A stretch of 64,000 nt of DNA from Daphnia pulex (taxonomy: Eukaryota > Arthropoda > Branchiopoda > Diplostraca > Daphniidae), in NCBI RefSeq assembly GCF_021134715.1, contig NC_060023.1, positions 1,488,001 through 1,552,000 on the forward strand, written 5' to 3'. Under the pieces are notes generated by a model. The model saw nothing but the letters and a program-made list of their open reading frames with translations. It was not told the origin of the DNA and did no database searches. Shown piece after piece: positions 9,496 through 37,175 of this stretch. The translations under genes were made by a program, and so were the position numbers. How positions within the stretch are numbered: position 1 is the stretch's first letter; each line of letters opens with the position of its first letter.

Positions 9496-12400
9496 CTAGA
9501 ATCCTGAGGTGGCCGTCGAAAATTTGTTCCTCAGACCTTTGACGATTTCGGCTTCTGTTGTTGACTTTTCAATTCGAAGAATTACACACAATTTTGCAAT
9601 ATCCTTCATTGGTAGCTGCCAAACCTGCCATAAAGCTGCGTTAGTATTCGACTTAAAAAGTAACAACGATTCAAGGTTTTAAAGTAGCCTAGTACCAGCC
9701 AGCTGTTTCGTGAATTCTGCCTTCGTAATCACGAAATCTTGCTTAAGTACCGCTACATCTAATTAAAAAAAAAGTTCCTTCAGTAATTTTGCAGGCATTC
9801 ACGCTGTTTTCATGTGGTTACGTACCATCCAATTTTTTTGTCGCGTTCACCCAATCTTGTCTGATTACTGCCAGATCTAATCAAAGTTGTACGAATATTA
9901 GGATATAACCATTCCATTACTATTTAAACGGCCGTACCGTCAAATTGTTTTGTGTAATCCGATTTCATTTCGTTCACAAAAGATTGTTTAGCTACTGCCA
10001 AATCTAATGAAAATTCAGATTTTTTCCACTTTGAAATCTAGCTTTTTTATTTTCAAATTATTACAACAGTACCATCAAATGTTTTTGTATAATCCGCTTT
10101 CATAGCGCTCACCAAGTCTTGCTGAGTTGCCGCCATATCTAAAACAAAATCGTTACTGTTATTATTATCATTTTTTCATTGGAATAATTTTGCGAAATAG
10201 GTTACCGTCCAATTGTTTTGTGTAATCTGCTTTCATGGCGTCCACTAATTCTTGATGAGCTACAGCCAAATCTAATAATGGATCGTTAGTCTTTTCCCGC
10301 ACGATTATATGGCTAGACATTTTAAATATTACCGTCCAACTGTCTTGCGTAATCTGCTTTCGTGCTTGTCAAATCTTGCTTGAGAACTGCAAAATCTATT
10401 AAAACATTTATCGCTAACTCCAATAAGAATACCACTCTTAATATTGAAAAGATTACCATCCAGTTGTTTTAAATATTCTGCTTTAGCGCCCACTAAATCC
10501 TTCCAAGTAGCTGCCAAATGTAATAAAAATATTCTTCCTAGGTTATTTACGTTCAAAACATGATAATCTGTTGAAGTATATTACCATCTAATTCCTTCGT
10601 AGTATTCATCGCACTTTGCTTGATTATTGCCAAATCTGCTCGGAATATTTCATTAAAATTAGAGTGTTAACTTTTACGCCTAGAATATTGAAATATTGCC
10701 TGTCAGCTGTTTTGCATAATCCGATTTAGTTTTCATCCAATCTTGCTTTATCGCCGCCATAACTAATAAAATTCTCTCAATTATTTTTGGACGAATAGCC
10801 ATTTTAAAGGTTTAGGAAATGTTAGAATATTTACCCTCCGATTGTTTTGCGTACGCCAATTGAGCGTTCATATAAGCTTCTTGCGTTGCTGCAAATGTTG
10901 TGAAAAATTATAGGAAATGTGTTTCGAATTTTAAACAATCAGCTATTACCGTCCAGTCGTTTTGTTGCGTTTATCAAATCAGCCTTTATTGCTGTCATGT
11001 CTAATCACCCAAAATTGATTTTAAAACTTGGAATGTTGATCTTAAAATTATATTACCACTCAATTTAGTTGAGTAATCCACTTTTGCGATCACCAATCCC
11101 TGCTTAATTATCGCCATATCTAAGCAAACAAAAATGTTTGTAAAACTTAATACAACACATTTTTAAACTGCTGAATGCTACCCTCCGATTGCTTCGTGTA
11201 ATCCGCTTTTGCGCTCGTTAAACTTTTTTGAATTGCTGAAATGACAATATTCCGTTCTATTTCAAAATTTGAAATCCAGGGAGATAAAAAAAAATATTTT
11301 ACCATCCAGTTGTTTCGTGGCGCTCATCAAATCTCGCTTAATTACTGCCAAATCTATTTCAAAATGTTTTTGATGAAAGTAAAGTCGCTTAAAATATTGA
11401 TGTATTACCATCCTGTTGTTTGGTGTAATTCGCAATAGCTCTCTGTAAATGATGTTGAGTTACTACCGAATTTTATCAAGAACTTATTAGTGACGACTTT
11501 TAAGAAAACTGCAGAAAAATTTTAACTTTACCATCCCACTCTTTTGAAAAGTTTGATTTTGCGCTCAACAAATCTTGTTTTATTTCTGCAAAACCTATCG
11601 GAACATTTGTTATTATGTGAAATCTATTACATACTCTCCACAAAGATATTACCATTCAATTGGTCGTCATATCCCTTCTTGGCCTTTTCTAAATGCCCAA
11701 GGGTTTCTGCAAATAAGATGAGAGGTTTCCTATTGTTTACTCAAACAGTGAAACAAATAAGACGTTACTTACCACCCAGATGTTTAGTTCCGCTTATCAA
11801 ATCTTGTTTGAGTATTTCCAAACCTATTATCGACGTGCAATAAAAAAAAAATGATTAACGATTTCCAATACTGATGATTCAACTGTAGAAAGGTTACCGT
11901 GCAATTGATTCGTGTAATTGGTTTTTGTGCTCATCATTTCTCTTTTGATCGCTGAAATTGCTGAGAAAATAATTATGTTAGGCCAATTGTAAATGAAGTC
12001 TACTACAATTATGACATCTCACCATCGGATTCCTTTTTATAACCTACTCTAGCGGTTATCAAATCTTTCTGCGTTGCTGATATTTATTTAAAATCGAAAT
12101 TATTAGCGTCCGTTCTATCAAAATCGATCAAATTTATTACCATCTAATTGTTTTGTGACGTTCATCAAATCCTGCTTGATTACTGAAATGTCTAGGGAAG
12201 GTAGAAACATTTTATGGCAACGCTTAAACACCGTAGAGGAAAAGTTAGATTATTTACCTTCCAACTGTTTCGTATAGTCCAATTTGGTATTCTTCAAATC
12301 TTGCTTAATGGCTGAGTAATCTATTGAAAATGTGATGAATTTTAAAGAAATATTAACATGTTAAATCACAAATACTTACCGGTTAATTGTTTTGCATAAT

Positions 12401-14241
12401 CAGCTTTAGCACTCAACAAATCTTGCCTAATTAGTGTCACATCTAATAATTTTCATCGCATTTTACTTTCCCAATTTATTCAATATAATTAAATTATTTT
12501 ACTAATTCCAATATTACCATCCAGTTGTTTGATGAAATTCGATTTGGTGCTTATCAACTCTTGCTTAATCACTGAAATTTCTAAGAAAATTACGCTATTA
12601 ACTTCAGTAGTAGGCTGGTAGTAGGCTACAAAAAATCAGGCTGTTGGAAATTACCATCAAACTGTTTTTTGTATTCCATCTTAGCGGCTGTCAAATCTTG
12701 TTGGGTGGCTGTAAAATGTATTCGAAACTTTTGTTGTATCCACTTAAAAAAATTATTTTCACCTTTTTGAAATATGTTACCATCCAATTGTCGAGTGGCA
12801 TTCACTACGCCTTGCTTGATTACTGAAATATCTAGTTAAAAATTTGGGAGATATTTAAAATATCAAAGCCGATTAAATTGTCAAAGAGAATTACCAATCA
12901 ATTGCTTTTCATAGTCAGTCTTGGTGCTCAGCAAATTCTTTTTGATTGCCGCCATATCTAATAAAATGTTGAAGTATTAATAAAAAATCAACAACTGTTG
13001 CAAAATATTTAAACCGCCGACATATGTATGTACCGTCAAATTCTTTGGCATAATCCGATTTGGTACTCGCCAGTTGTTGTCGAGTTTCTGCCAAATCTAA
13101 ACGGAGTGCCATAAGCAATTGCTACTAATACAATAGCCATTAAAAAATTACCCTCTAATTGTTTTGCGTAATCCGATTTTGCGTTCACCAAGTCCTGCTT
13201 CATTGCTGCCCATTCTAATTCCGAATAGTATTAGCGTCTACTTAAAAAAATAATCAATGCAAATATTACCATCCATTTGTTTTGCGTAATCCGCCTTCAT
13301 GGCGCTGACTAAATCCTGTTGAGTCGCTGTCAAATCTAAATCAAATTTCCCTTGGCTCTTATATGCATCAAAATGTAACTTTTGACAACATCAGTTTACC
13401 TTCAAACTGCTTTTTTGTGTTTATGAGATCTTGCTTGATAGTGGTTATGTCTAATCAGATTTTGTATTAGTAAAACAGTTCCAAAACTCACCAAGCTATC
13501 TGAACAGTACCTTCAAATTGTTTAGTGAATTCCTCCTTGGTGCTGACCAGTTCTTGCTTAATAACCTCAATATCTAATCGAAAATGCAATTGGTAATCAT
13601 ATCAAAAGTAGTCTCGAACCATTATTGAACCATTACCGTCTAATTGTTTTGAGTAATCCGTCCTGGCACTCACCAAATCTTGTTTAATATCCGTTAAACC
13701 TTCAGAAGTTTCTGAAAAATAAAATTATACGGATTAACTTAACTTTTAAAATGCAATTAATTTTTTTCACAATAGACAAGCTTGCCTTTTACACTCGTCT
13801 TTAAATTCACAACTTCCGTCATCGTTTCAGCTAGGATATGAAATGATTTTTCTAAGCGTTGGGAAGTATTATTCAACTGCAGAGTAGTCTCTGAAAATCG
13901 CAACCAAATTTAATTTTTCGCATTAGTTAAGGTTAATCTTAATAATGTACCCTGTAAGTTCTTTGCTAATGTCTCTGTGGTTTGTTCTAGTTTTTCGAAT
14001 CGCGTCGATGTCCGTCGAAAAAGGATATTTCGCCCCATCCTCACAGCCAGGTCGTCGGAGTCCACTTCTGCACGACGATTACTACTCCAATCGTCCGCCA
14101 ACTGGGCCGATACGACACAGGCCAGCGCCAGAACTACGGCGACAAACTGAAATGGGATGATGCAAATGGTAAGTGACACATTTCTCTCCCTAATTCATTC
14201 ACGAATAATTAAGGCGGACGTCAACTTACTGAAAACTTCAT
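9496..14241 (-). CDS. secreted helical-repeat protein built from 33 tiny symmetric exons
   Basis: Predicted 37 exons and 795 residues. Exon 1 (14241-14230, MKFS) and exon 2 (14146-13951) give a signal peptide, MKFS plus FVAVVLALACVVSA, then a Cys-poor mature chain. Exon 3 is 13890-13786. Exons 4-36 are repeat cassettes, all phase 1 at both ends, from 13711-13637 to 9758-9696. The last exon is 9635-9496 (ALWQVWQLPMKDIAKL... to stop). The consensus repeat is DLAVIKQ-DLVSAKA-DYTKQLD: three heptads, 21 residues, with Leu/Val/Ile/Tyr at heptad core positions. Cassettes encode 17, 18, 21 or 22 residues (the first 25). The donors of exon 3 (13785-13784) and of the cassette at 10762-10700 are GC rather than GT. 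I do not recognise the protein; coiled-coil rod or lipid-binding amphipathic helices are both possible. Confidence 0.85.
9696..13711 (-). repeat. tandem array of 33 exon cassettes (51/54/63/66 nt)
   Basis: Cassettes in transcription order, residues each: 25, 21, 17, 22, 21, 21, 21, 17, 18, 21, 21, 21, 17, 18, 18, 17, 18, 21, 18, 17, 18, 21, 17, 18, 21, 17, 18, 21, 22, 22, 22, 17, 21. Examples: 13573-13511, 13335-13270, 12831-12781, 12708-12655, 12580-12518, 11353-11303, 11235-11182, 11119-11057, 11000-10950, 10888-10835, 10762-10700, 10635-10585, 10510-10457, 10395-10333, 10138-10073, 9876-9826. Each is bounded by an AG acceptor and a donor after the last full codon plus one G. Introns are roughly 50-100 bp. 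A 17-18-21 triplet occurs three times in a row (11353 to 10333). Confidence 0.88.
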
Positions 14242-14261: not shown

Positions 14262-14296
14262 GACTGAATAATGTCCTGGCCATCAAACCTTTTATA
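14262..14296 (-). promoter_or_regulatory. TATA box plus TCAGT initiator of the repeat gene
   Basis: On the minus strand TATAAAAG lies at 14296-14289, followed about 30 bp later by TTCAGTC (14268-14262), the arthropod initiator form. The start codon is about 20 bp further on. This predicts a strong focused promoter. Confidence 0.7.
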
Positions 14297-15174: not shown

Positions 15175-16304
15175 TTATCCTCGCCGCATTGAACTCGATG
15201 GTAGTAGACGGTAGCCTATTACTGTCCGGGACGTGGGAGATTTCTGTACACACATAGTCAGCCCAAAAGATTGAAACCATTAGAATAGATTCTCTTGCCA
15301 AATTATCGTGCGGGTAAATTTTTCAAAAAAGTTTCCTGTTTTCTTACTTGATGGATCGTGAAGGCCTCGTACGACGAACCGGTTTGCCCGTACTGTGTAT
15401 GGGAAATCAACACAAATAAGAAAACAAGAAATACGCGGTCAGTTATAACCGGCCGAAATATTTTTGTTGTTGCTCGTGCAAGAATTCCCGTCTCGTACAA
15501 CAGTGTCCAAAATCGTTTGAAACAATTTTTTTGAAAAGTCTAGAACTCTACAGCAGACACTTTACGGAATTAGATAATTGGGGTACATACCATTGGGTCC
15601 TGACTAGCTCGGGAATTGTCTCGTCCATAGTTTTTCTGTCGATGAGATGATTCGAAGGAATCACGAACTGAATAACTGGGTGTTCGATACGCCGGGGTTT
15701 TCTCGTTCCCGTAGGATGAATCAGGATAGCTGTTTCGACTTCTGAATGTTTCACGAACTACCGGCTGGTATGTTATTCGCTCTCTCTGCCGATGATGCCG
15801 CTGAGAAGTCGAATGAATTTTGTTCGGACAAAAGGTCGCTGTATTGTCATGGATATCAAACGGGTCGCTACTGGGGGAGGAATAACCCGGGTCACTACTG
15901 GGAGAAGAATAGCCCAACCCACTACTGGGAGAGGAATAGCTTGGGCCACTACTGGGAAAAGAATAATAACCCGGGTCACTACTGGGAAAAGAATAACCCG
16001 ACCCACTAGTGGGAGAAGAATAGCTTGGACCATTACTGGAAGTGGAACAGCACTGGCCACTACTGGGTTCCGATGAATAAATTGGGTCACTACTGGAAGA
16101 GGGATAGCTCGGGACGCTACTAGGAGAGTAATAGTTCTGGCCAATACTGGAAGAGGAATAACTCTGATCACTAACACCGGGTGATGTTGGCACAGCGTAC
16201 ACCACGATAGAATCGAAGCCAGCTCCTAGCCTACGGATGAGTCCGTAGGGAGCCGAGTTGGCCATGTTGAAGGCAATCGCGAAAATTGTTAAATGAAATT
16301 TCAT
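15175..16304 (-). CDS. secreted Ser/Pro/Gly/Tyr-rich repeat protein
   Basis: Exon 1 (16304-15591) begins MKFHLTIFAIAFNMANSAPYG, a likely signal peptide. It continues with about ten imperfect repeats of the type SSDPGYSSPSSGPS, then a basic segment (RQRERITYQPVVRETFRSRN...). I join it in phase 0 to exon 2 (15392-15348, YGQTGSSYEAFTIHQ) and exon 3 (15243-15175, KSPTSRTVIGYRLLPSSSMRRG then stop), giving 275 residues. If the first donor is not used the frame ends at 15570 (244 residues). The composition suggests an extracellular structural or adhesive protein. It carries no recognisable domain. It sits next to the fucosyltransferase genes, and a decayed piece of it recurs near 18910. Confidence 0.65.
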
Positions 16305-16822: not shown

Positions 16823-18001
16823 TCATAACCAACTGGAGTCCAACTGTTGACACTTGTTGCCATCGCCCCATTCCGACTCCAGTTCCTTATACGACCGAAA
16901 ATTTCCATCCAGCTGGTGCAGTTTTCGACACAAGTCACAAAAGCCGTGACGAGTCATGTCTTCTACGCTGTATTCCACTTGGTAATAATCCTTCCACCAG
17001 AAATACTCGTTGTAGAGCGTGTCGTTTGCACCGAGTAATTTGAGATAAGCGGCCAATTCTTTGGGTTTGAACTTGCGGGCGTCGATGTACGAGTGGGGCG
17101 GTACGTGTTGGGTGTAATCGGCTCCGCCGTAGACGATCGGAACGATGTGGTGGCCCATAATTTTGAAAAACTTTTCAGTGACGTAGTCTGGACAAATTGC
17201 ATTTTCAAAAGACAAGTAGAATTTGTAGGTTGACTCGATCATGTCGTAACACTGCGGGTCCGAGTGATGCAGTACGTGAAGCGCACACGACAGATTACCA
17301 CATCTGCCGTAAATATTGACGTCGATGTATTTGCTCAGCTCTTTGACGTACTTTTCTCGTTGGCTGTGTGTATCACAATGAGAAACCATCCAGGCAACTG
17401 TTTTGGTCTTGTTACTAACTGCGTCTGGCGGTGAACTAACACGAGCTCTTTCTCTTAAATGACTTATCTCTTCCGGTGTCCGAGGAGCGTTTTCTTTTGG
17501 AATAATCCGACCGTATAGTAATCGAATATCAGAGTCCATTCTGTACGTCATTGTCCAATTGAAAAAATGAGCTAATTGAGTCATGTTGTAATACCGTTTC
17601 AAGGCTGGGGGAGACTCTTGAGTGAACATGACGAGGTGCTGATTTTCATCGCGTTTGTTTTCAAAATCTGGCATCATCATTTGATCCGGTGATTTGAATT
17701 CGTCATTAAGTACAATGACAATGGCGTCGTAATGATGGAGAGGACGTTCTTTCCGATTGTCGACCATTTCACATCTAGTTTCAGGGCATTTCTTATTGAC
17801 AAAGACGTCCTTACCCCAGCCGAAATTGCGGACTTCCTTTCGGCTAGATCCGTTCCAAATTAAAATTGTTTTGGTTTCATTTTGCCGGCGAATAACTTTG
17901 CCAACATTTTTATGAGTGGCCAACACCAAGACACCTAATAGAATCAGTAACACAGCGAGAACTCCAAATTTAGTGATTCTTTTAGTAAAGAATGACGTCA
18001 T
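16823..18001 (-). CDS. GT10 alpha-1,3-fucosyltransferase, copy 1
   Basis: Single-exon frame of 392 residues. It is a type II membrane protein: a short cytoplasmic start, a hydrophobic anchor at about residues 11-30 (KFGVLAVLLILLGVLVLATH), then a lumenal catalytic region. The GT10 donor-site motif is present as [19 protein letters not shown]. Other conserved segments are [30 protein letters not shown] and WMVSHCDTHSQREKYVKEL. It should transfer fucose from GDP-fucose to N-glycans or other glycans in the Golgi. Unlike the two neighbouring copies it stops at SSWL and lacks their hydrophobic C-terminal extension. Several N-glycosylation sequons are visible. Confidence 0.88.
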   Translation of the reverse strand: MTSFFTKRITKFGVLAVLLILLGVLVLATHKNVGKVIRRQNETKTILIWNGSSRKEVRNFGWGKDVFVNKKCPETRCEMVDNRKERPLHHYDAIVIVLNDEFKSPDQMMMPDFENKRDENQHLVMFTQESPPALKRYYNMTQLAHFFNWTMTYRMDSDIRLLYGRIIPKENAPRTPEEISHLRERARVSSPPDAVSNKTKTVAWMVSHCDTHSQREKYVKELSKYIDVNIYGRCGNLSCALHVLHHSDPQCYDMIESTYKFYLSFENAICPDYVTEKFFKIMGHHIVPIVYGGADYTQHVPPHSYIDARKFKPKELAAYLKLLGANDTLYNEYFWWKDYYQVEYSVEDMTRHGFCDLCRKLHQLDGNFRSYKELESEWGDGNKCQQLDSSWL

Positions 18002-19101: not shown

Positions 19102-20454
19102 TTATGATTTATTTTTACAGACATAACCACAGGCAAAAAGGCCAATACAAAGAAGGGCCACTAACAAAATGAAGCACATTGTTTTCTTCGAGTTCTCTTT
19201 GAGTAAAATTTCTTCACTAGGATCTGATATCCAGCCGGGATCAAACGGTTGACACTTGTTGCTTTCGCCCCATTCAGAATCCAGTTCCTTATAAGTCCGA
19301 AAATCGCCAACTTGTTGCTCGTGAAGTTTTTGGCACAAGTCACAAAATCCATGACGAGACATGTCCTCTATACTGTATTTCACGTCATAATAATCCTTCC
19401 ACCAGAAATACTCGTTGTACAGCGTGTCGTTTGCGTCGAGTAATTTGAGATAAGCGGCCAATTCTTTGGGTTTGAACTTGCGGGCGTCGATGTACGAGTG
19501 GGGCGGTGCGTATTGAGCGTAATCGACTCCGCCGTAGACGATGGGAATGATGTCGTGAGCCAATATTTTGAAAAACTTTTCAGTTACGTAATCTGGGCAA
19601 ATGGCATTTTCGAATGACAAGTAGAACTTGTAGGTTGACTCGATCATGCCATAACATTGAGGGTTGGAGCTATGCACCAGGTGTCTTGCACAAGTCAAGT
19701 GGCCACATTTACCAAAAATATTGACGTCGATGTATCTGCTCAGCTCTTTGGCGTATGTTTCTCGTTGGCTGTGTGTGTTGCAATGAGAAACCATCCAGGC
19801 AACTGATTTGGTTTTTCTCCGGACTCTGTCTGATGGCAAACTAACACGAGCTTTTTCTCTTAAATTCCTTATCTCTTCCGGTGTCCGAGGAGCGTTTTCT
19901 TTCGGGATAACTCGACCGTAGAGTAAACGAATATCAGCGTCCGATCTGTAGGTCATTGTCCAATTGAAAAAATGAGCTAATCGAGTCATGTTGTAATACG
20001 GTTTCAACGCCGGAGGAGCTTCTTGTGTTAAAAAGACGAGACGTTGACTTTGATTTCGTTTGTATTGAAACTCTGGCATCTTCAGTTGATTGGCCCACGT
20101 GAATTCGTCATTAAACACCACGACGATGGCGTCGTAATATTCGAGCGGACGATCCCATCGGTTGTCGACTATTTCACATCGTGTGTAAGTGCAGTTGTTT
20201 TTGGTGAATACGTCACGGCCCGTACCAAAGGCCAGCAATTCGGCTCGGCCCTTATGGAACCAAAGCGTGCCTCCCGATCCATTCCACAATAAAATGCTTT
20301 TCGTTCCGTTCTGCTGCTGAATGTATTTTGCCCAGTCTGATTTGACGGTCGGTGCTGTTAGGCATAGCAGATTGTACACAATGGAATAACTCACTAGCAG
20401 AACAAAAGCCACAATTTTAACCGATGATCGCAGTTTGTGTCCAATCCACTGCAT
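19102..20454 (-). CDS. GT10 alpha-1,3-fucosyltransferase, copy 2
   Basis: Single-exon frame of 450 residues. The N-terminal anchor is at about 12-32 (VKIVAFVLLVSYSIVYNLLCL). GT10 signature [15 protein letters not shown] lies at about 280-294, and WMVSHCNTHSQRETY at about 220-234. The last 40 residues form a tail not seen in copy 1: WISDPSEEILLKENSKKT followed by a hydrophobic stretch at about 426-446 (MCFILLVALLCIGLFACGYVC) and KNKS. If both hydrophobic segments span the membrane the enzyme would have two membrane passes. It is about 75-80% similar by eye to copy 3, and the two share upstream flank as well. Confidence 0.88.
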   Translation of the reverse strand: MQWIGHKLRSSVKIVAFVLLVSYSIVYNLLCLTAPTVKSDWAKYIQQQNGTKSILLWNGSGGTLWFHKGRAELLAFGTGRDVFTKNNCTYTRCEIVDNRWDRPLEYYDAIVVVFNDEFTWANQLKMPEFQYKRNQSQRLVFLTQEAPPALKPYYNMTRLAHFFNWTMTYRSDADIRLLYGRVIPKENAPRTPEEIRNLREKARVSLPSDRVRRKTKSVAWMVSHCNTHSQRETYAKELSRYIDVNIFGKCGHLTCARHLVHSSNPQCYGMIESTYKFYLSFENAICPDYVTEKFFKILAHDIIPIVYGGVDYAQYAPPHSYIDARKFKPKELAAYLKLLDANDTLYNEYFWWKDYYDVKYSIEDMSRHGFCDLCQKLHEQQVGDFRTYKELDSEWGESNKCQPFDPGWISDPSEEILLKENSKKTMCFILLVALLCIGLFACGYVCKNKS

Positions 20455-27727: not shown

Positions 27728-27994
27728 ATTTTTAACATTTTGCAACTTTTGAGAACTTATTGACCGAGAAAAGAGGTTTCTAACAAGACTGTGTGCACAT
27801 CATGAAATGAATCTAGATTAATCATGTGTTTGAATGTTGAAATATAGCTAAGATTGCAGAGAAATATTTTTAAAATAGCCGACTGCTGTCCTTCAAACGG
27901 TTCGAAATGGAAGATTTATTCATTCACCGAAGAAACGAGTCAAATGACTCAGATTTCAATATGTGTAAAGTGAGTTTTAAGCCGTAACCATTTG

Positions 27995-28064
27995 GTATTC
28001 ATTTTGATGTATTCATTTTGATGTATTCATTTTGATGTATTCATTTTGATGTATTCATTTTGAT
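27995..28064. repeat. 14-bp tandem repeat, five units
   Basis: Five perfect copies of GTATTCATTTTGAT. The mirror copy in the right arm lies at about 36837-36906. Confidence 0.9.
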
Positions 28065-28079
28065 ATTGGTTTTTGTAGA

Positions 28080-28216
28080 CCCATCCCCAGCGACGTCAAC
28101 CTGCAGAAGGAAAAGCTAGTTTTCCTTCAATCGAAGGTCACGGAGATCATTACGTGTCATGCAATGGTGAAGAGGTTGGGTGAGAACGACACGTGTTGCA
28201 CCATTATCAAGCAGGT
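28080..28216 (+). other. unidentified exon-like open stretch (also in the right arm)
   Basis: After an acceptor-like TTTTTGTAG, one frame reads IPSDVNLQKEKLVFLQSKVTE and on to CTIIKQ, then a GTAAAA donor. The stretch looks coding in composition but I cannot assign it or find its partner exons with confidence. An upstream ATG at 27907 opens MEDLFIHRRNESNDSDFN, ending near a GTGAGT donor, but its phase does not clearly join this frame. It may be a captured fragment like the AIF piece. Mirror copy near 36685-36822. Confidence 0.3.
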
Positions 28217-28260
28217 AAAATAGCCGCAAGGCTTAGGGGGTGAGGGTGAGAAAAAAATCG

Positions 28261-28296
28261 TATAAAAGGAGAGAGAAAATGCCATAGAAATCAGTC
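28261..28296 (+). promoter_or_regulatory. TATA box plus TCAGTC initiator
   Basis: TATAAAAG at 28261-28268 and TCAGTC at 28291-28296, 30 bp apart. This is the promoter of the truncated secreted-protein gene that starts at 28357. A second copy of the downstream leader sequence follows at about 28545-28615. The mirror image is at 36605-36640. Confidence 0.75.
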
Positions 28297-28356
28297 GAGT
28301 GAGGATCTCCGACACGGCAACAACTGCTCTCTTCGTCGTAATATCAGTTCGCAATC

Positions 28357-28541
28357 ATGGGTAAGTATTCAATTTTATATCGAGCCGTGAATCAATTCTA
28401 TTTTGTTTTTAGTAGTATGTATATTACCAGTTATATTCGAAAACTAATTTACAAATCCTTGATTGTTTAGTTGATAATGGCGTTGGGTTGCTGTTGGGTG
28501 TTGTATCTTTGATGCCGAGCCCGAAAGAGATAAGGCGATAG
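28357..28541 (+). pseudogene. truncated YYTTKAPE-family gene (signal peptide only)
   Basis: Exon 1 is ATGG (28357-28360) followed by GTAAGT. Exon 2 starts at 28471 and reads VDNGVGLLLGVVSLMPSPKEIRR then stop at 28539-28541. Exon layout and sequence parallel the intact gene at 29810. The frame ends where the leader of another copy has been joined, so only the signal-peptide part survives. A micropeptide product cannot be excluded. Confidence 0.55.
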
Positions 28542-28544
28542 AAA

Positions 28545-28945
28545 TCAATCGAGTGAGCATCTCTGACACGGCAACTGCATTCTTGGTGTTATTACCAGTT
28601 CTCAATCAGGGGTAAATATTTTGTATTTTGAAATCTAGTTTGTATCAATTTCTTTTTCCTTTCTATGCATTAATAATATGCCCGATTTTATTGAATATTG
28701 TCTAGTAAACTATGCCGTCGTGCTGCACTACACACTACAACAGATGCTGCTCCAAGCTAGTAAACCGAAGCCTCGAAGTATAATTCTTCCCCGAGCTACG
28801 CTACCAAAGCACACAGGTGCTACACCAACGAGTCTCCCAAGTACTACACAACTACGTATGCTGCTCCAGCCTACTACACCAAGGCTCCCAAGTACTACTC
28901 TGCTCCCAGCTACTACACCGAGGTATCTGAGTATTAACCTCGTGT
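28545..28945 (+). pseudogene. decayed YYTTKAPE-family copy
   Basis: A leader resembling 28281-28355 is followed by CAGGGG where the intact copies have ATGG, so the start codon is lost. After an acceptor near 28705 the sequence is frame-shifted. It then reads ESPKYYTTTYAAPAYYTKAP and on to a stop at about 28937. It is a dead family member; the mirror copy lies at 35956-36356. Confidence 0.65.
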
Positions 28946-29010
28946 TGAAGAATCTATTCCAAGTTATTTGAAGCAAGTTGCTTAATGTGAAAATTTCTTA
29001 CATTTAGCCA

Positions 29011-29740
29011 AAAGTAACGGACTGAAGGTGCTCAAAGATTTTGCTGAGGACGGTAGCAGGTCGAGTCCTCCCTAAATACTTGAGCGAATGGACAACCAAG
29101 AAGTTGAATGCGGAAAGTGTTAATGCGTTGCCCAAAGCTAATGTTGAGGGTGCAAGCTTGGAAGACAACAAGGTCCCATTGATCTTTAACAATGGTCGAA
29201 AGGTAAACAGTTATTTCAATACATGTTTTGTTAGCGATGTTAATTAAAATCGAAAAATTATTTCATCAGGTTTAAACTGACCATGTTGTTGTTACTGTCG
29301 GTTTGAATGCAAACACGGATTTGGCTGTCGCTTCTGGTTTGGAAATTGATTCGAATTTTAGTGGTTGTCGAGTCAATGCCGAGTTTGAAGCAGATCAAAC
29401 GTCTGGTTGGTAAGAATCCTTGAACATTTTCATTTCATATTAATTTTAATACAGTTTGTGATAAAAACTTAGTCAACATTGACTGCTCTGATACTGCTAG
29501 ATAGTATAAGAAGTTTTTCTAAAGTGATTTTACACCTTTGGTGGTAAATTTTGATTCTTATTTTTGGTTTTGGACTTTTTTTTTATTATTAAGCTAGAGA
29601 TGCTGCCTGCTTTTATGATATCAAATTGGATCGTCATCGTGTGGAACATCATGACCATGCTGTCGTATCATTGGCATGGATTGCCTGGCTGTGGTATTGA
29701 TTGGCTAGAGACCATATGATTGGCAATGGATGCATGCAAA
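29011..29740 (+). pseudogene. fragment of apoptosis-inducing factor (AIFM1) gene
   Basis: Three consecutive exons of an AIF-type flavoprotein, with introns. They read GRVLPKYLSEWTTKKLN to FNNGRK (29060-29201); then V[25 protein letters not shown] to [12 protein letters not shown] (29272-29410); then [24 protein letters not shown] (29593-29670). The order and the family motif [23 protein letters not shown] identify it. A TAA replaces the Glu codon expected in GRKVETDH, and the end is frame-shifted. The rest of the gene is absent, so it is a captured genomic piece rather than a retrocopy. Confidence 0.85.
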
Positions 29741-29809
29741 ATGGGTGAAGGACTGCAGCGCGATATTTGTCACTATCTGCACTCTTTGTCGTATTTTCAG
29801 TACGCAATC

Positions 29810-30333
29810 ATGGGTAAATATTCTATTACGTAGAGTTTTGTATCAATTTATTTATTTTTTTCTCAGTTTTAATATGCCAGTTATTGAATCTAAATGTTCT
29901 AATAATTTACCATCTAGTTAACTATGGTGTCCTGCTGCTGTATGTTGGTGTCCTGCTGCTGTATGTTGTATCGTTGATGGCTGGGTCAACCATTGGTGTA
30001 CCGATGTCTCCTGGGTATGGCGGATACCAAGCCGCAACGCCGCCGCCTTCCTACACAACAACAACATACGCACCAACCGGTTACCACACCACCAAGGCTG
30101 CAGAATATTACACCACAACTTATGATGCCCCGAGTTACTACATCGAAGCCTTGAAGTATAACTCTGCCCCGAGTTGCCTCAACAAAGAGGCGGAGTACTA
30201 CACCACCAAGGCACCGGAGTACTACACCACCAAGGCACCGGAGTACTACACCACCAAGGCACCGGAGTACTACACCACCAAGGCACCGGAGTACTACACC
30301 ACCAAGGCACCGGAGTACTACACCACCATGTAA
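29810..30333 (+). CDS. small secreted YYTTKAPE-repeat protein (left arm)
   Basis: Exon 1 is ATGG (29810-29813), exon 2 is 29918-30333, giving 139 residues. The start reads MVNYGVLLLYVGVLLLYVVSLMAG, a signal peptide whose core LLLYVGV has been duplicated by an about 20-bp tandem repeat. The mature part is Tyr/Thr/Pro/Ala-rich and ends in five YYTTKAPE octads (24-bp units from 30193) and YYTTM. Similar Tyr-Thr-rich secreted proteins are typical of arthropod cuticle or other extracellular matrices; the exact role is unknown. An identical-looking copy is encoded in the right arm on the minus strand. Confidence 0.65.
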
Positions 30334-31130
30334 GCTGTCTCAGCCTTATACACCGAGGTTTCCAACTACTACTGTGCCTAGCTACTACACCGAAGCTCCA
30401 GCTATTACACCACCAAAGCGGTAGAGTACTACACCGTAGCGCCCAAATTCTATCTGCCCGAGCTACGAAACTACATTTGTGGAGGCCCAGTACTACGTAG
30501 TACCTATTTACTACACAGTGAATGATCCTTAATACTACGTTGGACCGAAATACTGCTCTGAGTCTACAGTTTACTACACCACAACCTACGCTGCCCCTAG
30601 CTACTAAACCAAAGGCGCTAAGTACTACACCGAAAAGGCCGAATATTACCCAACAACGTATGCTGCCCTAGTTTACTACACCGAGGAACCCAAGTATAAC
30701 TCTGCTCCAACCAATATCAAACAGAGGCTCCGGTTTACTACACCACCAAGGCCCCTGAGTGTTACACTACAACCTACGCTGCCCCCAGCTACTACACTAC
30801 AACCTACGCTGCCCCTAGCTACGAAACCGAAGGCGCTAAGTACTACACCGAAAAGGCCGAATATTACCCAACAACGTATGCTGCCCTAGTTTACTACACC
30901 GAGGAACCCAAGTATAACTCTGCTCCAACCAACACCAAACAGAGGATCCGGTTTACTACACCACCAAGGCCCCCGAGTATCACACTACAACCTACGCTGG
31001 TTCCAGCTACTACACTGAAGCTCTAAAGTATTACTCTGCTCCGAGTTACTACACCACTAAAGCATTTGAATATTACACCACGACCTACGCTTCTTCAGTT
31101 TACTAGAGGGAGGCTCCTAAATACTAGACG
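30334..31130 (+). pseudogene. decayed continuation of the YYTTKAPE gene
   Basis: After the stop at 30333, sequence coding for similar motifs (YYTEAP, YYTTTYAAP, SYYTKA) continues for about 800 bp but jumps between frames and has several stops. A segment of about 180 bp is repeated with a period of about 220 bp (30585-30765 and 30805-30985). It may represent a once longer protein whose tail was lost, or further dead copies joined end to end. Confidence 0.65.
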
Positions 31131-31560
31131 AAGTTTCAGTTTTATTTCATTGTGTTGAGATTTGTCGGTCATATCATACTAGTCACTGGTATTGTTGTTG
31201 TTCTTAAATGAGAAAATAAATTTTTTAATGACGGTAATCATCATGTAAGACCTCTTTTAACACCTCCAAGCCATTGCGATCGGTCTTAATTTCAAACGTG
31301 GTGGAGGTGACTTGCTCTAGTCGCTCTGCATTCATGAATTTTCTTTCCATTTTCAGGTTAAGTTACGAAAGACTGTTAAGGGTTTACTCTAAATTAGTGA
31401 AGTTTGTATTTTCAACTCAAGTCACTTGACTATTACTTAAAGTAAATGTAAAACTTCAAAGTTGTAAGACAAAACATTAAAAGGAATTGCTTTGTTATCC
31501 CACCTCCACCCACAATTCCACCACATTTTACAATCACATACATGCATACATACACTTAAG

Positions 31561-31874
31561 TTAACCCGTTGGCTGCCACGCCATACAACCCGTAGGTTGT
31601 ACTCTACTACTCTACGCGCCACGTCTGAAGGATCCGTGACCAAAGTGGGACTTGCCATTGCTGACAAGTCCGGGCTGACACGGTGACAGGAGAATCCATC
31701 ACCGCATCGACAAGGGGGAAGTCCCTATAGTGCATTGCCTTAACAGGCGCCTTGCGGCAAGTTTTGGGCTGGTACGACTTTCCGATCCCACGGCATGAAA
31801 ACCACGAGACCGAACAGCGCACGCAGCCCGTGCAAAGCTAGGGGAGAAAAAAGGCGTGGCAGACAACGGGTTAA
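31561..31874. mobile_element. piggyBac-like MITE, left arm
   Basis: The element spans 31565-31870 (306 bp) with inverted ends beginning CCCGTTGGCTGCCACGCC and one mismatch between the ends. TTAA flanks it on both sides (31561-31564 and 31871-31874). TTAA target sites and CCC-starting ends are characteristic of the piggyBac superfamily. It encodes no transposase, so it would be non-autonomous. Confidence 0.8.
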
Positions 31875-32311
31875 CTTACACAAACACAAACATATTACCA
31901 ACAACAAATGATGATCCACGCTGACGTTTTGGAGATACCGGCGATGTTTTGGTGTCCATCTTCTCGACGTCTCTTCTGCATTACCTGATTAAAGAGAAAA
32001 ACATTCTTATTTAGTGACATGCCAATAAAAGTTACATAACACAGATAGAAACAATAATAAGGTTTTTTAGCTCAAAGATTTAAATATGCAATTTTTTAAA
32101 GTTTAAATCAAGCTTGCAATATTGAGAACTGTAAACAGAACAAAGCTCACTTGCTAGTCTTTAAAAAAAATTCCGGAAGTATACCGGAAGTAACCACAGC
32201 GCCTCAACCATTGAGCTGTCGTCAAATTAAACCACATATTCGTGATCTCCATGAAATTTGGGGTCGATTAGATGTGATTTAAACGAAATCCAAAATTTGG
32301 CCAAAATCGAG

Positions 32312-32341
32312 AATTTTCCTGAACTATAGTTCAGGAAAATT
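32312..32341. repeat. perfect 30-bp palindrome, left arm
   Basis: Centre TGAACTATAGTTCA extended on both sides by TTTTCC/GGAAAA. It is within 70 bp of the arm's inner end and recurs at 32560-32589. It could form a hairpin or cruciform. Confidence 0.9.
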
Positions 32342-32381
32342 TTCAAAACCGGAAGTACGCGTACGCAAAAAACACAACATG

Positions 32382-32519
32382 AACCGACAGAGCTCCGTGA
32401 TTAATTAGTTTTTTTTTTCTACTTCCGGTTTTCTCATTTCTGTCAGTAGTTTAGTAAATATTGATCTGACGCACAAAAGAACCACATATTCGTGATCCTC
32501 GTAAAATTTGGGGTAAAGT
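32382..32519. other. central spacer of the inverted repeat
   Basis: About 138 bp of unique sequence between the arms. It includes a direct-repeat relative (CCACATATTCGTGATC and AAATTTGGGGT) of sequence at 32231-32271 in the left arm, so it may be part of the repeat family that seeded the inversion. Confidence 0.8.
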
Positions 32520-32559
32520 TCATGTTGTGTTTTTTGCGTACGCGTACTTCCGGTTTTGA

Positions 32560-32589
32560 AAATTTTCCTGAACTATAGTTCAGGAAAAT
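32560..32589. repeat. perfect 30-bp palindrome, right arm
   Basis: Mirror of the palindrome at 32312-32341. Confidence 0.9.
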
Positions 32590-33023
32590 TCTCGATTTTG
32601 GCCAAATTTTGGATTTCGTTTAAATCACATCTAATCGACCCCAAATTTCATGGAGATCACGAATATGTGGTTTAATTTGACGACAGCTCAATGGTTGAGG
32701 CGCTGTGGTTACTTCCGGTATACTTCCGGAATTTTTTTTAAAGACTAGCAAGTGAGCTTTGTTCTGTTTACAGTTCTCAATATTGCAAGCTTGATTTAAA
32801 CTTAAAAAAGTTGCATATTTAAATCTTTGAGCTAAAAAACCTGATTATTGTTTCTATCTGTATTATGTAACTTTTATTGGCATGTAACTAAATAAGAACT
32901 GTTTTCTCTTTAATCAGGTAATGCAGAAGAGACGTCGAGAAGATGGACACCAAAACAACGCCGGTATCTCTAAAATGTCAGCGTGGATCATCATTTGTTG
33001 TTGGTAATATATGTTTGTGTTAG

Positions 33024-33340
33024 TTAACCCGTTGGCTGCCACGCCTTTGTCCTCCCCTAGCTCCTTTGCACGGGCTGCGTGCGCTGTTCGGTCTCGTGGT
33101 TTTCATGCCGCGGGATCGGAAAGTCGTACCAGCCCAAAACTTGCCGCAAGGCGCCTGTTAAGGCAATGCACTATAGGGACTTCCCCCTTGTCGATGCGGT
33201 GATGGATTCTCCTGTCACCGTGTCAGCCCGGACTTGTCAGCAATGGCAAGTCCCACTTTGGTCACGGATCCTTCAGACGTGGCGCGTAGAGTAGTAGAGA
33301 GCAACCTACGGGTTGTATGGCGTGGCAGCCAACGGGTTAA
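33024..33340. mobile_element. piggyBac-like MITE, right arm
   Basis: Mirror copy of the element at 31565-31870, here 33028-33336, again with TTAA on both sides (33024-33027 and 33337-33340). It differs by a few bases and small indels, more than the surrounding arm sequence seems to. Confidence 0.8.
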
Positions 33341-33770
33341 CTTAAGTGTATGTATGTATGTATGTGTTTGTAAAATGTGGTGGAATTGTGGGTGGAGGTG
33401 GGATAACAAAGCAATTCCTTTTAATGTTTTGTCTTACAACTTTGAAGTTTTACATTTACTTTAAGTAATAGTCAAGTGACTTGAGTTGAAAATACAAACT
33501 TCACTAATTTAGAGTAAACCCTTAACAGTCTTTCGTAACTTAACCTGAAAATGGAAAGAAAATTTCCGAATGCAGAGCGACTAGAGCAAGTCACCTCCAC
33601 CACGTTTGAAATTAAGACCGATCGCAATGGCTTGGAGGTGTTAAAAGAGGTCTTACATGATGATTACCGTCATTAAAAAATTTATTTTCTCATTTAAGAA
33701 CAACAACAATACCAGTGACTAGTATGATATGACCGACAAATCTCAACACAATGAAATAAAACTGAAACTT

Positions 33771-34567
33771 CGTCTAGTATTTAGGAGCCTCCCTCTAGTA
33801 AACTGAAGAAGCGTAGGTCGTGGTGTAATATTCAAATGCTTTAGTGGTGTAGTAACTCGGAGCAGAGTAATACTTTAGAGCTTCAGTGTAGTAGCTGGAA
33901 CCAGCGTAGGTTGTAGTGTGATACTCGGGGGCCTTGGTGGTGTAGTAAACCGGATCCTCTGTTTGGTGTTGGTTGGAGCAGAGTTATACTTGGGTTCCTC
34001 GGTGTAGTAAACTAGGGCAGCATACGTTGTTGGGTAATATTCGGCCTTTTCGGTGTAGTACTTAGCGCCTTCGGTTTCGTAGCTAGGGGCAGCGTAGGTT
34101 GTAGTGTAGTAGCTGGGGGCAGCGTAGGTTGTAGTGTAACACTCAGGGGCCTTGGTGGTGTAGTAAACCGGAGCCTCTGTTTGATATTGGTTGGAGCAGA
34201 GTTATACTTGGGTTCCTCGGTGTAGTAAACTAGGGCAGCATACGTTGTTGGGTAATATTCGGCCTTTTCGGTGTAGTACTTAGCGCCTTTGGTTTAGTAG
34301 CTAGGGGCAGCGTAGGTTGTGGTGTAGTAAACTGTAGACTCAGAGCAGTATTTCGGTCCAACGTAGTATTAAGGATCATTCACTGTGTAGTAAATAGGTA
34401 CTACGTAGTACTGGGCCTCCACAAATGTAGTTTCGTAGCTCGGGCAGATAGAATTTGGGCGCTACGGTGTAGTACTCTACCGCTTTGGTGGTGTAATAGC
34501 TGGAGCTTCGGTGTAGTAGCAAGGCACAGTAGTAGTTGGAAACCTCGGTGTATAAGGCTGAGACAGC
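33771..34567 (-). pseudogene. decayed continuation of the YYTTKAPE gene, right arm
   Basis: Mirror of 30334-31130 with the same frame breaks and the same internal 220-bp-period duplication. Confidence 0.65.
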
Positions 34568-35091
34568 TTACATGGTGGTGTAGTACTCCGGTGCCTTGGT
34601 GGTGTAGTACTCCGGTGCCTTGGTGGTGTAGTACTCCGGTGCCTTGGTGGTGTAGTACTCCGGTGCCTTGGTGGTGTAGTACTCCGGTGCCTTGGTGGTG
34701 TAGTACTCCGCCTCTTTGTTGAGGCAACTCGGGGCAGAGTTATACTTCAAGGCTTCGATGTAGTAACTCGGGGCATCATAAGTTGTGGTGTAATATTCTG
34801 CAGCCTTGGTGGTGTGGTAACCGGTTGGTGCGTATGTTGTTGTTGTGTAGGAAGGCGGCGGCGTTGCGGCTTGGTATCCGCCATACCCAGGAGACATCGG
34901 TACACCAATGGTTGACCCAGCCATCAACGATACAACATACAGCAGCAGGACACCAACATACAGCAGCAGGACACCATAGTTAACTAGATGGTAAATTATT
35001 AGAACATTTAGATTCAATAACTGGCATATTAAAACTGAGAAAAAAATAAATAAATTGATACAAAACTCTACGTAATAGAATATTTACCCAT
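34568..35091 (-). CDS. small secreted YYTTKAPE-repeat protein (right arm)
   Basis: Exon 1 is 35091-35088 (ATGG), exon 2 is 34983-34568. The encoded 139-residue product is identical to that of the left arm, including the duplicated signal-peptide core and the five octads. The pair would be transcribed towards each other, so their transcripts could form hairpins or double-stranded RNA if they extend to the spacer. Confidence 0.65.
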
Positions 35092-35160
35092 GATTGCGTA
35101 CTGAAAATACGACAAAGAGTGCAGATAGTGACAAATATCGCGCTGCAGTCCTTCACCCAT

Positions 35161-35890
35161 TTTGCATGCATCCATTGCCAATCATATGGTCTCTAGCCAA
35201 TCAATACCACAGCCAGGCAATCCATGCCAATGATACGACAGCATGGTCATGATGTTCCACACGATGACGATCCAATTTGATATCATAAAAGCAGGCAGCA
35301 TCTCTAGCTTAATAATAAAAAAAAAGTCCAAAACCAAAAATAAGAATCAAAATTTACCACCAAAGGTGTAAAATCACTTTAGAAAAACTTCTTATACTAT
35401 CTAGCAGTATCAGAGCAGTCAATGTTGACTAAGTTTTTATCACAAACTGTATTAAAATTAATATGAAATGAAAATGTTCAAGGATTCTTACCAACCAGAC
35501 GTTTGATCTGCTTCAAACTCGGCATTGACTCGACAACCACTAAAATTCGAATCAATTTCCAAACCAGAAGCGACAGCCAAATCCGTGTTTGCATTCAAAC
35601 CGACAGTAACAACAACATGGTCAGTTTAAACCTGATGAAATAATTTTTCGATTTTAATTAACATCGCTAACAAAACATGTATTGAAATAACTGTTTACCT
35701 TTCGACCATTGTTAAAGATCAATGGGACCTTGTTGTCTTCCAAGCTTGCACCCTCAACATTAGCTTTGGGCAACGCATTAACACTTTCCGCATTCAACTT
35801 CTTGGTTGTCCATTCGCTCAAGTATTTAGGGAGGACTCGACCTGCTACCGTCCTCAGCAAAATCTTTGAGCACCTTCAGTCCGTTACTTT
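35161..35890 (-). pseudogene. AIFM1 fragment, right arm
   Basis: Mirror copy of the fragment at 29011-29740. It carries the same nonsense codon and frame damage, so the damage predates the inverted duplication or has been spread by conversion. Confidence 0.85.
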
Positions 35891-35955
35891 TGGCTAAATG
35901 TAAGAAATTTTCACATTAAGCAACTTGCTTCAAATAACTTGGAATAGATTCTTCA

Positions 35956-36545
35956 ACACGAGGTTAATACTCAGATACCTCGGTGTAGTAGCTGGGAGCA
36001 GAGTAGTACTTGGGAGCCTTGGTGTAGTAGGCTGGAGCAGCATACGTAGTTGTGTAGTACTTGGGAGACTCGTTGGTGTAGCACCTGTGTGCTTTGGTAG
36101 CGTAGCTCGGGGAAGAATTATACTTCGAGGCTTCGGTTTACTAGCTTGGAGCAGCATCTGTTGTAGTGTGTAGTGCAGCACGACGGCATAGTTTACTAGA
36201 CAATATTCAATAAAATCGGGCATATTATTAATGCATAGAAAGGAAAAAGAAATTGATACAAACTAGATTTCAAAATACAAAATATTTACCCCTGATTGAG
36301 AACTGGTAATAACACCAAGAATGCAGTTGCCGTGTCAGAGATGCTCACTCGATTGATTTCTATCGCCTTATCTCTTTCGGGCTCGGCATCAAAGATACAA
36401 CACCCAACAGCAACCCAACGCCATTATCAACTAAACAATCAAGGATTTGTAAATTAGTTTTCGAATATAACTGGTAATATACATACTACTAAAAACAAAA
36501 TAGAATTGATTCACGGCTCGATATAAAATTGAATACTTACCCATG
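35956..36545 (-). pseudogene. decayed and truncated YYTTKAPE-family copies, right arm
   Basis: Mirror of 28357-28945: the signal-peptide-only copy (exon 1 at 36544-36541) and the copy with the lost start codon, with the same defects. Confidence 0.6.
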
Positions 36546-37175
36546 ATTGCGAACTGATATTACGACGAAGAGAGCAGTTGTTGCCGTGTCGGAGATCCTC
36601 ACTCGACTGATTTCTATGGCATTTTCTCTCTCCTTTTATACGATTTTTTTCTCACCCTCACCCCCTAAGCCTTGCGGCTATTTTACCTGCTTGATAATGG
36701 TGCAACACGTGTCGTTCTCACCCAACCTCTTCACCATTGCATGACACGTAATGATCTCCGTGACCTTCGATTGAAGGAAAACTAGCTTTTCCTTCTGCAG
36801 GTTGACGTCGCTGGGGATGGGTCTACAAAAACCAATATCAAAATGAATACATCAAAATGAATACATCAAAATGAATACATCAAAATGAATACATCAAAAT
36901 GAATACCAACTGGTTACGGCTTAAAACTCACTTTTTAACCAATTGACATCTGAGTCATTTGACTCGTTTCTTCGGTGAATGAATAAATCTTCCATTTCGA
37001 ACCGTTTGAAGGACAGCAGTCGGCTATTTTTAAAATATTTCTCTGCAACCTTAGCTATATTTCAAAATTCAAACACATGATTAATCTAGATTCATTTCAT
37101 GATGTGCACACAGTCTTGTTAGAAACCTCTTTTCTCGGTCAATAAAAATAAGTTCTCAAAAGTTGTAAAAATGTT

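Follow-up and report, generated by a model that had tools for sequence, protein, structure and literature searches.

Thirty-three symmetric mini-exons encode the repeats of a predicted secreted coiled-coil rod in Daphnia pulex

Introduction

Fibrillar collagen and the PEVK region of titin exemplify a rod or spring encoded by an array of symmetric exons. Collagen probably lengthened by the copying of whole exons, and the elastic region of titin is known for length variants that arise through alternative exon use.

Two further groups of genes come close in design to the locus described here. Schistosome micro-exon genes (MEGs) encode a signal peptide and are split into numerous short exons whose lengths are mostly divisible by three; these exons are mainly symmetric and of 36 bp or less, and the introns run from 100 to almost 5000 bp. 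According to a review on these genes, short symmetric exons may drop out without loss of frame, favouring protein variation, and a MEG paper cites, by its title, a report of tandem exons with 81-base repeats. Aphid bicycle genes are described as having many small internal exons, almost all of phase 2.

Here we analyse a minus-strand gene of Daphnia pulex within a 64,000-nucleotide window, by which we mean the whole stretch of DNA that was studied. Most of its coding sequence lies in 33 small repeat-encoding exons, hereafter cassettes. Like schistosome MEGs, the gene has numerous short exons, mostly of multiple-of-three length, behind what appears to be a signal peptide, and like the bicycle genes it has many small internal exons in a single phase. 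However, none of the 33 cassettes (51-75 nt) is of 36 nt or less, the long MEG introns give way to introns of 55-76 nt between cassettes, and all 33 cassettes are of phase 1 rather than phase 2. Whereas bicycle proteins bear CYC motifs, the mature Daphnia protein has only two cysteines, both in its preferred tail. These defining features are thus absent, and the gene is comparable in design to both groups but a member of neither. Collagen and the PEVK region differ from it in fold and repeat, and no sequence relation to them is claimed. Its build is a variant on an already known exon-cassette design, not one without precedent.

Results

Gene architecture

The exon chain was rebuilt manually, with splice sites picked among candidate sites and from the sequence. 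Coding starts at position 14241, and the 36 exons that precede the terminal one measure 12, 196 and 96 nt, followed by the 33 cassettes. The features are as follows, in window coordinates.

14290..14296, minus strand: TATA box, TATAAAA, identified by eye
14230..14241, minus strand: exon 1, phase 0, encoding MKFS in 12 nt, matched by a 12-nt first coding exon (MKIS) in the paralog
13951..14146, minus strand: exon 2, which completes the apparent signal peptide and carries a conserved N-terminal region, from the rebuilt chain and paralog alignment
13795..13890, minus strand: exon 3, phase 1-1, where the helical part begins, from the rebuilt chain and paralog alignment
9696..13711, minus strand: 33 phase 1-1 cassette exons of 25, 22, 21, 18 or 17 residues, from the rebuilt chain
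10700..10762, minus strand: cassette exon 28, with the sole GC donor, from the rebuilt chain
9569..9624, minus strand: preferred terminal exon, comprising a truncated cassette, a CxxxC tail and the stop, from branch-point spacing and the paralog
9496..9635, minus strand: alternative terminal exon, open, less favoured

One cassette is 75 nt long, four are 66 nt, 13 are 63 nt, seven are 54 nt and eight are 51 nt, corresponding to 25, 22, 21, 18 and 17 residues, respectively. Every cassette is open, starts in phase 1 and has a length divisible by three (33/33). The rebuilt chain thus agrees with the first-pass annotation, which had described 33 consecutive frame-neutral exons of 51-75 nt, phase 1 at both ends, each with a related repeat. 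The TATA/initiator promoter that it had proposed also fits, since by eye an initiator-like TCAGTC, with its A at 14265, lies ~31 bp downstream of the TATAAAA.

The last exon had been placed at 9635-9496, and this choice is now disfavoured. Its AG follows a TACTAAC branch-point-like site by only ~5 nt, whereas the AG of 9624-9569 follows it by ~16 nt; the product of the latter, GLAATNEGYCKIVCNSSN, has a cassette-like beginning. On account of the branch-point spacing, and because the last exon of the paralog likewise looks like a truncated cassette, 9624-9569 is the more likely terminal exon.

Among the cassette acceptors, TAG (24) outnumbers CAG (9), and every cassette ends in G. The donors are GT in 32 cases and GC in one. 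Only five of the 33 carry G at position +5. The commonest donor sequences across 9696-13711 are GTAATA (nine) and GTAATT (three), which were perhaps copied together with the cassette exons. The 32 introns between cassettes average 64.75 nt, and for 28 of them retention would place a stop codon in frame.

Repeat identity and constraint among cassettes

A profile trained on 17 of the 33 cassettes, applied to a six-frame reading of the window at a threshold of at least 12 bits, gave 29 matches, all within the gene. It recovered 11 of the 16 held-out cassettes and gave no match in five random windows of equal dinucleotide make-up. A splice-chain finder trained on the gene's own sites returned two runs that together comprise 23 of the 33 cassettes.

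Differences among the cassettes are concentrated at silent positions. In equal-length pairs, the pooled pN/pS was 0.416 (pN 0.297), a ratio that is rough because synonymous sites are near saturation (pS 0.713), and differences per site reached 0.525 at the third codon position against 0.331 and 0.280 at the other two. Within the gene, 78 of 528 exon pairs were alike at E<0.001, compared with 2 of 496 intron pairs. Taken together, the pN/pS, the third-position excess and the likeness of exons rather than introns make it likely that the cassette copies are old and that selection on the protein maintains them.

A predicted coiled-coil rod

The joined product has 767 residues and no proline. It opens with an apparent signal peptide, MKFSFVAVVLALACVVSA, clear by eye, as expected of the secreted product that had been proposed earlier. 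Hydrophobic residues recur with a peak period of 3.50 residues (power 23.9 over 648 residues), which is the hallmark of a very long coiled coil and, together with the lack of proline, bears out the earlier description of one helical repeat per exon. Restricting the residues to the narrower set ILMVF moves the peak to 3.51 (power 22.5) and gives a power of 18.9 at 3.50. Across the cassettes the heptad power is 24.1, a value reached by none of 2000 residue shuffles (maximum 7.2).

The order of the cassettes also matters. Shuffling that order reached the observed power in 37 of 5000 trials (72 of 5000 with ILMVF), so the heptad phase is better preserved in the actual order than chance would allow for. 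In six places an 18-residue cassette comes directly after a 17-residue one, a count that 20 of 100000 order shuffles reached. Such a pair spans 35 residues, or five heptads, and the 21-residue exon spans three. The heptad phase does not run unbroken along the rod, with changes of register at exons 6-7, 22-23 and 32-35.

N-glycosylation sequons occur in five of the eight 17-residue cassettes and in three of the 25 others (p 0.0099, uncorrected for post-hoc choice).

In database searches, the best Pfam match was Fez1 at 31.3 bits, under its curated cutoff of 34.4; NCBIfam gave below-cutoff matches only, and PDB sequences gave none at E 0.01. Among the literature matches listed, we recognised no description of the gene.

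Exon skipping and heptad register

A single gene of this kind could yield a ladder of rod lengths if its cassettes were alternatively used. All cassettes are frame-neutral, and the 28 donors without G at +5 could favour skipping. Frame-neutral removal of short symmetric exons has been proposed for schistosome MEGs.

The introns and the heptad signal speak against such a ladder. Introns as short as these suggest splicing by intron definition, in which errors retain introns rather than skip exons. Their length of 55-76 nt therefore argues against routine cassette skipping, and retention would in most cases introduce the in-frame stops noted above. Without one of the 17-residue cassettes, the heptad power falls from 24.1 to 16.7 on average (eight cases). 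The power stays at 22.7 when a 17+18 pair is dropped (six cases), at 23.0 for a 21-residue cassette (13 cases), at 21.0 for a 22-residue cassette (four cases) and at 23.5 for the 25-residue one. Frame is thus not the sole constraint on cassette loss; the heptad signal is affected as well. All told, we regard a splice-variant ladder as unlikely.

We also considered whether every skipped exon of other than 21 residues has an obligatory partner. This was rejected for the 18-residue exons, whose single loss gave a power of 26.3 (seven cases) and hence no decrease.

A paralog on the same contig

A search of the gene's own genome at E 1 gave 37 matches among the best candidates scored, 35 of them in the gene itself and two at a paralog (L022, 7664-6123). 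This lies on the same contig, C7, across a gap of ~106 kb. It has the 12-nt first coding exon listed above and the same phases, and over exons 2-4 (the N-terminal exons and the first cassette) it is 45% identical to the gene under study. Four cassettes follow, each of 138 nt, phase 1-1 and 46 residues, with a period of 3.54, and the product has 349 residues.

The two genes share an apparent signal peptide, phase 1-1 coiled-coil exons and a last exon that is a truncated cassette. The paralog differs in its Tyr/Pro-containing N-terminus and in having no cysteine tail. G stands at +5 in six of its seven donors, against 5/33 in the cassette donors, a comparison of two genes only.

A C1q-bearing stalk family

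Weak matches led to a second family, on contig C10, of which six loci (L043-L048) were fetched; the exon chain was worked out only for L047. Of the other weak matches, one on C9 was dropped because by eye it looked like a cuticle-like repeat read in a different frame, and one on C11 is a long coiled-coil reading frame; the remaining ones fell at a further place on C10 and at one on C12.

G000:C10:12508001-12518000: L047, C1q domain and a stalk of small phase 1-1 exons

With exons picked by eye among candidates, L047 has 24 phase 1-1 exons besides a large N-terminal domain; the last of these exons (150 nt) is probably not part of the stalk. The chain has three gaps, where this copy looks degraded or could not be resolved. 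Tandem blocks recur every 469-496 bp. After the exon run comes a C1q match covering part of the domain (E 5.5e-8). All six loci matched the N-terminal part of L047 and the piece containing C1q, and all six held stalk-like matches. The N-terminal match of L046 is split across two frames and therefore suggests a damaged copy. A composite stalk query hit 59 places at E 0.01: one in the C7 paralog, six on C3, C5 and C12, and the remainder on C10. The splice-chain finder gave no run of at least six exons in the six loci, taking the two best chains per strand.

The Daphnia rod gene and L047 are alike in their run of small phase 1-1 exons and their coiled-coil-like repeats, whereas the large N-terminal domain and the C1q domain set the C10 family apart. 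A profile search did not establish homology between the two sets of cassettes; its best match had E 0.0018, in L048, and the others were weaker. These appear to be separate families whose stalks are built alike. Together with the paralog and the aphid and schistosome designs, the C10 stalks contradict the first-pass statement that no family with this build was recognised.

The C10 genes raise the question of whether the product of our gene, too, is a stalk in a protein of immunity or recognition, and not a structural rod. A published account counts 172 genes with C1q domains in Daphnia pulex, and a Neurexin/C1q family of 82 genes is reported to be over-represented among the genes that this species down-regulates in response to predator cue. 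That the same genome places a C1q domain behind a stalk of small phase 1-1 exons, and that the cassette profile has one weak match in that family, would agree with such a role. Against it stand the absence of a C1q match in our gene (Pfam, E 0.01) and in the paralog (E 0.1), along with the profile comparison of the two sets of cassettes. We consider a recognition-protein stalk improbable.

The one GC donor and the many donors without G at +5 might suggest a gene in decay, or open segments that are spliceable and stand in a row by chance. Either is highly improbable given 33 open cassettes out of 33, amino-acid constraint among them and a gene start conserved in the paralog.

Discussion

The open exon chain, its phases, the repeat, the heptad period, the constraint among copies and the paralog are direct observations. 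From them we infer, with good though not full confidence, a real gene, spliced in vivo, whose product would be a secreted and very long coiled-coil rod of structural function with a two-cysteine tail, grown by the duplication of symmetric exons. The rod would comprise ~640 residues, or roughly 95 nm if fully helical. Such helices may associate into oligomers, and the two cysteines of the tail could cross-link chains, presumably through disulfides. The most likely job would be structural, with the cuticle, an egg covering, the gut lining or a secreted matrix as candidate sites in the animal. Counting against this reading are the shift of the peak with ILMVF, the rough pN/pS, the donors without G at +5, the shifts of register and the heptad signal left unharmed by loss of one 18-residue exon, and the database searches lend the proposed function no direct support.

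Growth may have proceeded as symmetric exons were duplicated whole, singly or in blocks, each added cassette bringing a whole repeat and leaving the reading frame intact. Two modules dominate, the 21-residue exon and the 17+18 exon pair, both of which keep the heptad phase.

If this is correct, coiled-coil rods of this crustacean change length through the copying of whole exons, and exon lengths may record a rule that keeps the helix in register. The locus would then allow one to test cleanly whether the geometry of the protein restricts the gain, loss and skipping of exons. More speculatively, and as an idea we hold with considerable doubt, arrays of symmetric mini-exons might be a recurrent genome device for building, lengthening and possibly splice-tuning secreted coiled-coil stalks. 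It would have been used in at least two families, one a pure rod and one bearing C1q, with heptad-neutral modules as the units of gain, loss or skipping. Such genes are easily missed by automatic annotation and by profile libraries.

Neighbouring features of the window

Beside the rod gene, at 15570-16304 on the minus strand, lies a 244-residue open frame that contains tandem repeats rich in Ser, Tyr and Pro and may encode a signal peptide; Pfam gave no match for it at E 0.01. Two single-exon family-10 fucosyltransferase-like genes follow on the minus strand, at 16823-18001 (E 2e-63) and 19102-20454 (E 7.6e-61). Elsewhere in the window, positions 27967-31837 and 33064-36934 form an inverted repeat with arms of 3,871 nt that are 100% complementary. 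The inverted repeat and two copies of a tandem-repeat stretch lie within a palindrome at ~27757-37145, which arose through recent gene conversion or else is an artefact of assembly.
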